Positions 8,725 to 53,770 of a stretch of 64,000 nt of DNA are shown here, in pieces; within the stretch, counting starts at the first letter, position 1, and every line of letters begins with the position of its first letter. The notes under the pieces were generated by a model. That model had not been told where the DNA came from, made no database searches, and saw only the letters and a list, made by a program, of their open reading frames with translations. Origin of the DNA: Phaeospirillum sp. (GTDB lineage Bacteria; Pseudomonadota; Alphaproteobacteria; Rhodospirillales; Magnetospirillaceae); assembly GCA_030651575.1 (NCBI GenBank), contig JAUSFB010000065.1:1-64000 (forward strand), in the 5' to 3' direction. The position numbers were made by a program, and so were the translations under genes.

Positions 8725-8730
8725 GTTTTA

Positions 8731-8848
8731 TCCCTCAAGCGCCGGGCGGTCACATCCGTGACCTGGGCTACGCGGCATGGGCCGCGCCGGCCGTTGGCCG
8801 CAATTCCGCGCCAGGGCGCGTCGGTATGTTGGTCCCTCAAGCGCCGGG
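8731..8848 (-). repeat. Intercistronic structured repeat, copy 1 (aroK-aroB)
   Basis: Fills the gap between the aroK stop and the aroB start. End motifs TCCCTCAAGCGCCGGG lie at 8731-8746 and 8833-8848, 102 bases apart. The core carries hairpins GGTCAC/GTGACC (8748-8753 and 8758-8763, loop ATCC), CGCGGC/GCCGCG with loop ATGG, CGGCC/GGCCG, and CGCGCC/GGCGCG near the aroK end. Read in the gene direction, the end motif contains CTTGAGGG, and its GAGGG is 7 nt before the aroB ATG. Related copies occur near 23823-23942 and 52690-52912. Confidence 0.8.
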
Positions 8849-23822: not shown

Positions 23823-23942
23823 GCCGGCGCCCGAGGCCCATTCACACCGACGAACCGACCGGCTCGGAATTACAGCCACGGGCCGGCGCGGCCCATGGTG
23901 TGCGAGCCAAGGGGCCGGACGGCCCCGCCCGGCGCTTGAGGG
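23823..23942 (+). repeat. Intercistronic structured repeat, copy 2 (fliI-fliJ)
   Basis: Occupies almost the whole gap between the fliI stop and the fliJ start. The end motif CCCGGCGCTTGAGGG lies at 23928-23942, and a degenerate copy lies at the fliI end (23823-23839). A hairpin GGGGCC/GGCCCC with loop GGAC lies at 23911-23926, in the position held by different bases in the other copies. A second hairpin pairs CGAACC with GGCTCG near 23851-23866, using a wobble. GAGGG at 23938-23942 is 9 nt before the fliJ ATG. Confidence 0.78.
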
Positions 23943-23951
23943 CCATTCATA

Positions 23952-51199: not shown

Positions 51200-51753
51200 G
51201 ACGTCCTCTGATAAACCACGAACACCAGTTGAGCCGCGCCGTGGCGGCGGCGGTCCACCTCCTCGAAGCCGGCGGGCGGGACAAACTCCTCGTCCGCCGC
51301 CACCTCGACCACCACCAGCGCGTCCCCGGCCAGCCAACCCTTGGCGGCAAGGCCGGCGAGGCACGGCCCCACCAGCCCGGAACGATAAGGCGGATCGAGG
51401 AAGGCCAGGGCGCAGGGAGCGGGCGCGGCGGGCGGCTTGGCGGCGTCGGCGCGGATCACCTTGGCACGGCCCTCCTCGCCCAACGCCGCGACATTGGCGT
51501 AGATGGCGGCCAGGGATTCCGGGTTCAGTTCGAGAAAACTTGCATGGGCCGCGCCACGCGACAGCGCCTCCAGCCCCAGCGCCCCCGAACCGGCGAAGGC
51601 GTCGACCACCACCGCGCCCTCCAGTTCCACCAGATCGGTATGGGCCAGGATGTCGAACAGCGCCTGGCGCACCCGGTCGGCGGTGGGACGGGCGACCCGG
51701 CCGGACGGGGCGGCCAGCCGCCGGCCCTTATGGAGTCCGGCGACGAGGCGCAT
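51196..51753 (-). CDS. rsmD: 16S rRNA (guanine(966)-N2)-methyltransferase
   Basis: Methylates G966 of 16S rRNA. 185 aa, normal length. It begins MRLVAGLHKGRRLAAPSG, has RPTADRVRQALFDIL, SAM motif VVDAFAGSGALGLEALSRG (about 48-66) and the catalytic LDPPY motif, all classic RsmD. Its start lies 26 bases inside the end of the pseudouridine synthase gene, and its stop overlaps rmuC, so three genes are coupled. Confidence 0.96.
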   Translation of the reverse strand: MRLVAGLHKGRRLAAPSGRVARPTADRVRQALFDILAHTDLVELEGAVVVDAFAGSGALGLEALSRGAAHASFLELNPESLAAIYANVAALGEEGRAKVIRADAAKPPAAPAPCALAFLDPPYRSGLVGPCLAGLAAKGWLAGDALVVVEVAADEEFVPPAGFEEVDRRRHGAAQLVFVVYQRTS

Positions 51754-52681
51754 GGGGCTTTGCCCTATCGGTTGTCGCCCGGCCGGGGGCCTCGGTCCTG
51801 GTGCCGTCGGCGGCGTAATAGGGCTTCACCTGCTTCTTGGCCTCGGCGGCGTATTTATCGTCGGCCAGCTTTTGCTTGCGGGCCTTGGCGGCGACGCGCT
51901 GATCCTTCTCGCGCTCGCCGGCCGGCTTTTCCTCGGCCTTGGCGTGCAGCACCGCCTTGCCCTCGCCCATCTGCTCGCGCAGCACCTTGCCCGGAACCTC
52001 TTCCACCGCGCCCTCGTCCAAGGTGCCCAGCTGGAACGGGCCATAGGCGATGCGGATCAACCGGGTCACCGGCCAGCCGAGGAAATCCATCACCCGGCGG
52101 ATTTCGCGATTCTTCCCCTCGCGCAGGCTGACGGTGAGCCAGGCATTGGCCCCCTGCTGGCGGTCGAGGATGGCCTTGATCGAACCATAGGCGGCGCCAT
52201 CGATGGTGATGCCCTGCTCCAGCCGGGCCAGGACCTCGACCTGAACTTCGCCATGGACCCGCACCCGATAGCGGCGCACCCAATTGTTGGAAGGCAGCTC
52301 CAACTTGCGCGCCAGCTCGCCATCATTGGTCAGCAGCAGCAGACCCTCGGAATTCAGGTCGAGCCGCCCGACCGAAACCACGCGGGACATGCCCTCGGGC
52401 AGCTTATCGAACACGGTCGGCCGACCCTCGGGGTCGCGATGGGTGGTCACCAACCCGGATGGCTTGTGATACCGCCATAGCCGGGTGCGTTCCGGCTCGC
52501 CCAGCGGCTGGCCGTCCACCACCACGATGTCCCTGGCCGTCACCACACAGGCGGGGCTGTCCAGCTTGGAGCCGTTGACCACGACGCGGCCGGCGGCGAT
52601 CCAGCGCTCGGCATCGCGCCGCGAGCACAGGCCGGCGCGGGCCAGCCGCTTGGCGATGCGCTCACCCTTTTCTTCGGTCAT
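51728..52681 (-). CDS. RsuA/RluB-family rRNA pseudouridine synthase
   Basis: 317 aa. An N-terminal S4 RNA-binding domain (about 8-55) precedes the catalytic domain, with the active-site Asp108 in VGRLDLNSEGLLLL and REGKNREIRRVMD. The C-terminal tail (about 235-317) is long, Lys/Ala-rich and disordered, typical of alphaproteobacterial RluB-like enzymes. RluB (23S) is more likely than RsuA (16S), but the sequence alone does not decide. The ribosome site, GAGGG nine bases upstream, is part of the intercistronic repeat array that fills the gap to the preceding gene. Confidence 0.9.
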   Translation of the reverse strand: MTEEKGERIAKRLARAGLCSRRDAERWIAAGRVVVNGSKLDSPACVVTARDIVVVDGQPLGEPERTRLWRYHKPSGLVTTHRDPEGRPTVFDKLPEGMSRVVSVGRLDLNSEGLLLLTNDGELARKLELPSNNWVRRYRVRVHGEVQVEVLARLEQGITIDGAAYGSIKAILDRQQGANAWLTVSLREGKNREIRRVMDFLGWPVTRLIRIAYGPFQLGTLDEGAVEEVPGKVLREQMGEGKAVLHAKAEEKPAGEREKDQRVAAKARKQKLADDKYAAEAKKQVKPYYAADGTRTEAPGRATTDRAKPHAPRRRTP

Positions 52682-52689
52682 ATATTTTG

Positions 52690-52912
52690 TCCCTCAAACG
52701 CCGGGCGGGCGCATCCGCGCCCTTGGCTCTCGCGGCATGGGCCGCGCCGGCCCTTGGCCACAACTCCGAGCCGGGTGGCTCGTCGGTTATTTTGTCCCTC
52801 AAACGCCGGGCGGGCGCATCCGCGCCCTTGGCTACGCGGCATGGGCCGCGCCGGCCCTTGGCCGCAACTCCGAGCCTGCGGCTCGTCGGTTATTTTGTCC
52901 CTCAAACGCCGG
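52690..52912 (-). repeat. Intercistronic structured repeat, tandem copies 3 and 4
   Basis: Two head-to-tail units with three end motifs at 52690-52705, 52795-52810 and 52898-52912, giving periods of 105 and 103 bases. The units are nearly identical except near the last hairpin (CGAGCC/GGCTCG with loop GGGT in one and TGC in the other). Each carries GGGCGC/GCGCCC with loop ATCC, CGCGGC/GCCGCG (or a close form) and CGGCC-type stems. The array fills the gap between the PuuD-like gene stop and the pseudouridine synthase start and supplies the latter's GAGGG. Confidence 0.85.
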
Positions 52913-52920
52913 ATGCCCGC

Positions 52921-53634
52921 TCATGAACACGCCTCCACGAAGGCCCGCAGCAGGGCGGCGTCGGCCGGGCTGATATGGTATTCGGGATGCCACTGCACCC
53001 CGATGCAAAACCGCCGGGTCGGGTCCTCGATACCCTCGATCACCCCATCGGGGGCGACGGCGTCGACCACACAGTTGGGGGCCACCGCCTTGACCGCCTG
53101 ATGATGGGCCGAGTTGACCGCGATCCGCGCCGCGCCGACAATGGCGGCCAGCTTCGAGCCCGCCACCACATCCACGTCATGGCCGGGTTCGGTACGGGGA
53201 TTGGGCTGTTCATGGGCCAGACAGTCGCCGATCTCGTCGGGGATGTGCTGGATCAGAGTCCCACCCAGGGCGACGTTCATCAACTGCTGACCGCCGCAGA
53301 TGCCGAGAATCGGCAGGTCGCGGTCCAGCGCGCCCCGCACGATGGCCATCTCGAATTCGGTCCGCCGCGCCTTCAGGGTCACGGTGGCGTGGCGGCTGGC
53401 GGCCCCGAACAGCGCCGGATCGACGTCGAAGGCTCCGCCGGTGACGATCAGCCCGTCGATCAGGTCGAGATAAGCCGCCGCCAATTCCGGCTCGTGCGGC
53501 AGCAAGACGGGCACGCCGCCGGCGGCAACCACCGTCTCGCAATAGTTCTGGCGCAGGGCGTACCACGGCATCTTGGAATAGCCGCCGGCCTTCTCGCTGT
53601 CCAAGGTAATGCCGATGATCGGTTTGGAACTCAT
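52921..53634 (-). CDS. Class I glutamine amidotransferase, PuuD-like (gamma-Glu-GABA hydrolase family)
   Basis: 237 aa, peptidase C26 family. MSSKPIIGITLDSEKAGG at the start, the nucleophile elbow LGICGGQQLMNVALGG with catalytic Cys, and the C-terminal His in GVQWHPEYH are conserved. PuuD hydrolyses gamma-glutamyl-GABA in putrescine degradation, but no other puu gene is present, so the real substrate may be another gamma-glutamyl compound. The ATG at 53634 is chosen because GAGGG of a lone repeat end lies 11 bases upstream. Confidence 0.85.
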   Translation of the reverse strand: MSSKPIIGITLDSEKAGGYSKMPWYALRQNYCETVVAAGGVPVLLPHEPELAAAYLDLIDGLIVTGGAFDVDPALFGAASRHATVTLKARRTEFEMAIVRGALDRDLPILGICGGQQLMNVALGGTLIQHIPDEIGDCLAHEQPNPRTEPGHDVDVVAGSKLAAIVGAARIAVNSAHHQAVKAVAPNCVVDAVAPDGVIEGIEDPTRRFCIGVQWHPEYHISPADAALLRAFVEACS

Positions 53635-53644
53635 TATTGGTCGA

Positions 53645-53660
53645 TCCCTCAAGCGCCGGG
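53645..53660 (-). repeat. Lone end motif of the intercistronic repeat
   Basis: TCCCTCAAGCGCCGGG is identical to the end motif in the aroK-aroB copy and again places GAGGG just before a start codon, that of the PuuD-like gene. The following sequence differs from the usual core. It contains another hairpin, GCATCGC/GCGATGC at 53707-53723, and the neighbour beyond is divergent tadA, so this may be a remnant or a related subtype. Confidence 0.6.
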
Positions 53661-53770
53661 CGCGAACTCCGCTAAAGCTCCAGGTCGCTCAACGCTCCCG
53701 CGCTTCGCATCGCTTTGCGATGCCTTCCTATACAGTTCCAGCCGGCGCGAAGCCATGCTAAAGCGGAGCC

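Follow-up and report, generated by a model that had tools for sequence, protein, structure and literature searches.

MIRUs of mycobacteria stand in tandem in operons, and their copies are oriented with the genes. A review describes them as short, mobile repeats whose insertion at a start codon couples a small reading frame to the following gene, at a −4 spacing and with little effect on that gene (PMC12548453, in the part of that account used here). The BOX element of pneumococcus is structured and built around tandem internal modules, the number of which varies; the length of its arrays differs between strains (PMC3049150, in part). REPs are intergenic palindromes that occur in many copies and carry compensatory changes (part of PMC2817692), and the TAACTGA repeats of the Beggiatoaceae are direct repeats located just upstream of start codons, in the ribosome-binding region (part of PMC4679880). 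Here, we describe a repeat of about 104 bases that is interspersed, rich in hairpins, located mainly between genes and widespread in the order of its host genome, which we take to be Rhodospirillales.

The array studied lies in a window of 64,000 nucleotides from Phaeospirillum sp. (assembly GCA_030651575.1, contig JAUSFB010000065.1, positions 1–64,000, forward strand). Tandem Repeats Finder placed it at 52,683–52,912, with a period of 105, 2.2 copies, 95% matches and a score of 414; the next-best of the five tandem arrays in the window scored 61. An exact 16-base end motif is present at 52,689–52,704, 52,794–52,809 and 52,897–52,912, at spacings of 105 and 103 bases. The exact motif positions and Tandem Repeats Finder thus agree on the arrangement that had been proposed from the letters of the DNA before any database search (the sequence-only reading), namely two nearly identical head-to-tail units of 105 and 103 bases with three end motifs. 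In the sense of both flanking genes, the motif reads CCCGGCGnnTGAGGGAC, and the array runs on the minus strand in the order motif, unit, motif, unit, motif. A single unit read on this strand consists of four hairpins followed by the motif with its final TGAGGGAC.

The array spans the gap between two minus-strand genes. The upstream gene (52,921–53,634) ends in ATGA, and its product resembles a gamma-glutamyl-gamma-aminobutyrate hydrolase of the PuuD kind, for which the best model was below cut-off. The first end motif, with no unit ahead of it (52,897–52,912, minus strand), starts 7 bases past this stop. It is followed on the same strand by the first unit (52,794–52,896, with a period of 103 bases), comprising four hairpins and the end motif at 52,794–52,809, and by the second unit (52,689–52,793, with a period of 105 bases), in which the hairpins lie at about 52,767–52,782, 52,749–52,759, 52,731–52,746 and 52,707–52,722 and the motif at 52,689–52,706. 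The array ends 8 bases before the ATGA start of the downstream gene (51,728–52,681), which encodes an rluB-like pseudouridine synthase of 317 amino acids by profile match; TIGR00093 was above cut-off, and the best model was RluB, below the RluB cut-off. Within the last motif, the Shine-Dalgarno-like GAGGGA (52,690–52,695, minus strand), a putative ribosome-binding sequence, lies 8 bases ahead of the rluB-like ATG. The array has ATGA at both ends and carries no coupled frame, and no ATG was found within 16 bases past the internal motifs of its units. The two units are identical at 0.943 of positions overall and at 0.925 in the hairpin core, where they have 6 differences.

Three other copies were found in the window. 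A degenerate copy (53,644–53,732, minus strand, 19.9 bits) precedes the puuD-like gene, with its motif ending 10 bases before the ATG. A one-unit copy with two motifs (8,730–8,847, minus strand; unit at 8,730–8,828) separates aroB from an upstream gene that is presumably aroK-like, and its motif ends 6 bases before the aroB ATG. Another one-unit copy, with one motif (23,843–23,944, plus strand), ends 8 bases before an ATG. The claim that other sites have a single unit therefore held for the window; genome-wide, tandem arrays occur at other sites as well. Among 60 strong sites of this genome (those with at most one mismatch, out of 71 candidates), 35 had one motif, 16 had two, six had three and three had four, while a 60-copy sample from relatives had one motif at 53 sites and two at seven.

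Allowing up to two mismatches, the motif occurs 108 times in the genome, compared to 12 times for a reversed control, which excludes chance; about 100 of the 108 positions were listed. BLAST with the unit gave 71 pieces in this draft genome of 87 contigs (G000). After the exclusion of five loci with rearranged units, 48 distinct units were available, 40 of which entered the own-genome alignment from which a covariance model was built. With this model, G000 had 90 matches and all 17 genomes of the genus had between 3 and 149 each, counts that are to be read as “at least”, since no more than 150 candidates were scored per genome. The first focal unit matched at 52,794–52,893 with 116.6 bits, and the second, with 121.1 bits, was the best of the matches listed for the 17 genomes. 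A search of 57 non-overlapping loci of relatives with the same model gave 60 matches. In the order as a whole, matches with rough E-values were found in 46 of 120 sampled genomes (the own genome included), in 26 of 67 genera and, by a hand count from the table, in 15 families. Fifteen distant copies from eight families of the order have one layout: a hairpin, a linker, hairpins, AAGCCAAG or a near version of it, a variable hairpin and a GCCCGGCG-like motif with TGAGG. Rfam covariance models with E-values up to 1 gave no match in the window at 52,600–53,000 or in eight loci of relatives, and a known RNA family was rejected for the stretches searched. A phage origin was likewise rejected, as there was no match in the phage collection. 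Four plasmid records, from Azospirillum (one), Niveispirillum (two) and Tistrella (one), matched 25–53% of the query. We found no title or abstract opening that describes the element in a literature search that mostly excluded subscription journals, in which it may be in print.

To place the copies relative to genes, flanking genes were called by a simple score for codon usage, with 38 open reading frames of the window as the training set. The 60 strong sites of G000 comprised 39 that were sense to both flanking genes, seven antisense, seven convergent, two divergent and five undetermined. The relatives’ sample (60 high-scoring copies, 40 from G008, 16 from G014 and four from G003, so that full units are favored) gave 20 sense, 18 antisense, 16 convergent, four divergent and two undetermined copies. 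For the context counts in this sample, a looser rule had stretched four of the 60 arrays by chance motif-like matches; a stricter rule left the main counts unchanged. The sense-to-antisense ratio differed between the two sets (39:7 vs. 20:18, p = 0.0018), and the orientation bias of G000 was not replicated in G008, G014 and G003. It follows that supply of a ribosome site is not general to all copies.

The spacing to the start codon was more consistent. An ATG is present 6–11 bases past GAGGGA in 20 of the 41 G000 sites that have a co-oriented downstream gene, with a peak at 8 bases, which is also the focal spacing, and 7–11 bases past the motif in 11 of 24 cases in G008, G014 and G003. The gene starts with ATGA in 17 of the 20 near sites, compared to 9 of the 20 far ones (p = 0.019). 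Since the spacing peak is repeated in the relatives and the orientation bias is not, start-codon placement is a repeatable feature for part of the family and no general rule. The GAGGGA of the last motif is a putative Shine-Dalgarno sequence. About half of the co-oriented sites lack an ATG at 6–11 bases, which argues against a ribosome-site reading. A check against the anti-Shine-Dalgarno sequence gave no 16S match in the G000 assembly. The completeness of this assembly is given as 99.99%; rRNA may be absent from the draft or masked. A coupled small frame is not a general trait of the copies: a scan of 65 motif pairs found an ATG 3–16 bases past the first motif in eight and an ATGA overlap after the second motif in only one.

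We compared the same gaps between species, using the one genome per species in the collections and reading the rluB-like gap by eye. Named relatives identify the genus as Paramagnetospirillum/Magnetospirillum; from matching contig coordinates, G008 is probably the MAG VK2_bin-0414, G014 P. kuznetsovii LBB-42 and G010 P. caucaseum SO-1. In nine of 17 species, there is no insert, and the two genes overlap or abut. G000 has two units, G008 has one (51.8 bits), G014 a motif remnant and G001 a lone motif, while G007 has a different sequence upstream and no visible motif. A lone motif in G012 (L071) and a motif–unit–motif insert in G009 (L069), both at the start of the rluB-like gene, are in frame and form N-terminal extensions of the RluB-like protein. 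In G002, a single unit, flanked by a 27-base direct repeat, forms a 35-codon frame with ATGA overlaps with the genes on both sides; having only one motif, it was found apart from the scan of motif pairs. At three further gaps, the motif was sought in the 260 bases ahead of the gene. The gap at a NUDIX gene has three motifs in G000 and none in 16 of 16 other species, and the pgk gap, with four in G000, is free of the motif in all 15 other species that could be read (G012 being unreadable). The aroB gap has no motif in 13 of 14 readable others (G001 and G013 being unreadable; contig edges or partial hits were responsible in all three cases). The exception is G008, in which a 34-codon frame past the first motif overlaps aroB at its end through an ATGA. 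In G014 and G008 (L199 and L200), the gap upstream of pgk has a different palindromic repeat with CCCGCG-type arms in place of the four-motif array of G000.

Presence and unit number at one gap thus differ between species. A fixed two-unit array common to all relatives, which the sequence-only reading had named as the outcome that would speak against it, is not what the 17 species display at the rluB-like gap. Its proposal that the motif boundary allows the copy number to change was supported in part, in that array size varies between loci and between species; unequal crossing-over at the motif is one possible mechanism. In both the rluB-like and aroB gaps of G000, the insert has an ATGA on either side, as would result if insertion had duplicated the overlap. 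A broader proposal would be that this is an undescribed, order-wide, mobile RNA-structured element that enters translationally coupled junctions, brings along a stop, a ribosome-binding site and sometimes a start codon, and through its unit number sets the coupling of the neighboring genes. We put this forward only tentatively, as improbable in its full form.

Units of the same array are much more alike (mean identity 0.968; 14 pairs from eight arrays) than pairs taken from different arrays (mean 0.763, maximum 0.935; 300 pairs), and the units are identical in two distinct arrays from the loci of relatives. The focal pair, in contrast, ties with one pair at L093 for the lowest within-array identity (0.943). 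The first bases after internal and terminal motifs match over a mean of 2.6 bases within arrays and only 1.3 bases between them (26 sites, p = 0.0025), with seven matching bases in the focal array. This agreement indicates that duplication took along some flanking DNA and occurred in place. In its core, the unit at 52,794 shows a single difference from a unit of L113, on a different contig, compared to six from its neighbor, making exchange between loci likely. The neighbor has a rare variant, GTTGTGG (two of 40 units), and other marks that it has in common with the L130 unit, which also points to such exchange.

These comparisons bear on the simplest account, put forward in the sequence-only reading, that one unit was recently duplicated in tandem by unequal crossing-over at the end motif. 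The array-specific spacer and motif shared by the units and the differences in unit number between species are as such an event would predict, whereas the closer similarity of one unit to a distant copy than to its neighbor is not, and we consider this account unlikely. Judged from its differences, the focal pair is no fresh copy. Where near-identity had been ascribed to either a recent event or gene conversion, recency was thus not upheld, while exchange between loci appears likely. The best fit to these data is duplication in place and later conversion between loci, with slippage and unequal crossing-over fitting alike.

The explanation that we favor, with moderate confidence, is that the array, two copies of an interspersed repeat, arose when one copy entered an ATGA junction, was tolerated through the end motif, was duplicated in place and was partly converted. 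A copy of the element would have entered the stop/start overlap between the puuD-like and rluB-like genes. The insertion was presumably tolerated because the end motif supplies a TGA stop and the GAGGGA ribosome-binding sequence at a suitable distance, with the result that both genes would retain their ends and the second gene its start signal. Slippage or unequal exchange, with breakpoints inside the motif or just beyond it, would then have duplicated the units locally, and conversion from other copies in the genome would have overwritten them in part. No transposase was identified for the element, which counts against this explanation.

The four helices of the unit were assigned by eye from the alignment and then counted. 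In the own-genome units, 95.6% of cells were paired, and 97 two-sided changes were found, compared to 33.5 in shuffled alignments; none of 500 shuffles reached 97. For two weaker measures of the five, 29 of the 500 shuffles reached the number of pairs with a two-sided change, and 41 reached that of further pair types. The relatives’ set, which excluded own-genome copies but was aligned with the covariance model, had 94.3% paired cells, 229 two-sided changes (66.7 in shuffles) and 18 of 22 pairs changed on both sides, and no shuffle out of 500 reached it on any of the five measures. The four hairpins of the unit thus covary. Single-sequence folding gave no significant z-score on the plus (−1.52) or minus (−0.56) strand, so the structural evidence is the covariation and not the folding energy. 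No mod-3 rule for unit length was seen by eye. The last helix has many different stem sequences around a GGA loop. CsrA is a natural reader of GGA loops; binding by CsrA was rejected, as no match to it was found in any of the 17 genomes, while the control search was positive in three of 14 genomes.

The paired changes in all four hairpins, together with the conserved linkers and a GGA loop that is invariant in the 40 own-genome units, could reflect a functional cis-acting RNA under selection, such as a module for mRNA stability, processing or regulation, with unit number tuning the expression of the operon. When mismatches are counted by the strand on which they form G-U, the relatives have a ratio of 30:11 in favor of the element-sense RNA (p = 0.004; p = 0.002 when pooled with the own genome), a hint that selection acts on the RNA. 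The corresponding ratio of 20:12 in the own genome was not significant (p = 0.22), and the alignment of the relatives was fitted to the model. Furthermore, the GGA loop is not retained in several distant copies, as many as 34 of the 60 copies from relatives are convergent or antisense, and most other species have no copy at the four sites examined, so that no single site is conserved. We regard this function as improbable, to about the same degree as a recent simple duplication. Palindrome correction is a known mutation route, and template-switch repair of imperfect palindromes could have made the paired changes without selection, in a functionless repeat amplified by slippage. Consistent with this process, helices 3 and 4 show symmetrical swaps from G-C to C-G and few intermediates; the process leaves unexplained the conserved linkers and end motif in the 15 distant copies from eight families, as well as the G-U strand asymmetry. 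We consider it quite unlikely.

Compensatory changes have also been reported for REPs (PMC2817692, in part), which the present repeat resembles in being intergenic, palindromic and present in many copies. A REP/BIME-like DNA element would be moved by a RAYT (Y1) transposase that recognizes the hairpins. The units here are, however, arranged head to tail rather than alternating, with four hairpins per unit. A RAYT-driven REP was rejected, as Y1_Tnp had no match in G000 and was found in only four of the 17 genus genomes, with a control search that was positive in five of 14 genomes, including E. coli. This origin is very improbable.

In its logic, the element appears closest to MIRU, in its array build to BOX and in its palindromes to REPs, and it probably works like the mycobacterial or the pneumococcal element. 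Coupled frames of the kind described for MIRU are found here in two inserts, on both sides of the G002 insert at the rluB-like gene and on the downstream side of the G008 insert at aroB. Tandem copies also vary in number, here between loci and between species. MIRUs belong to a different phylum and were likened by description, not by sequence, and most copies of the present element have a Shine-Dalgarno-like end without a coupled frame. The likeness to BOX is in the tandem units in variable number; according to the part of PMC3049150 used, the boxA and boxC ends of BOX are distinct, and its terminal inverted repeats resemble those of an IS, whereas the units here share their end motif. Judged by eye, the repeat has no inverted termini and no A- or C-type end modules. 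Like the TAACTGA repeats, the present copies lie just ahead of start codons; those repeats differ in having seven-base units, no predicted structure and little Shine-Dalgarno character, as the portion of PMC4679880 used describes them. We have filed the element under the general kind of small interspersed intergenic repeats, as one that would work like MIRU, rather than under a named family. It would give the order a MIRU-like element family, with length markers useful for strain typing, and offer a natural experiment on the entry of mobile DNA into gene-dense operons with translation left intact. Another question that it would raise is by what means a structured repeat is moved in a genome where neither a RAYT match nor inverted ends were seen.

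A subset of copies in G000 (L098, L099, L111 and L131) is edged by longer AT-looped hairpins of the GAGCCAATTCATTGGCTC type, perhaps terminators. Two contig ends of G000, C2:309,881 (L096) and C23:101,675 (L107), fall inside arrays of similar units of 103–107 bases, which suggests that an array broke the draft assembly at each of these points.
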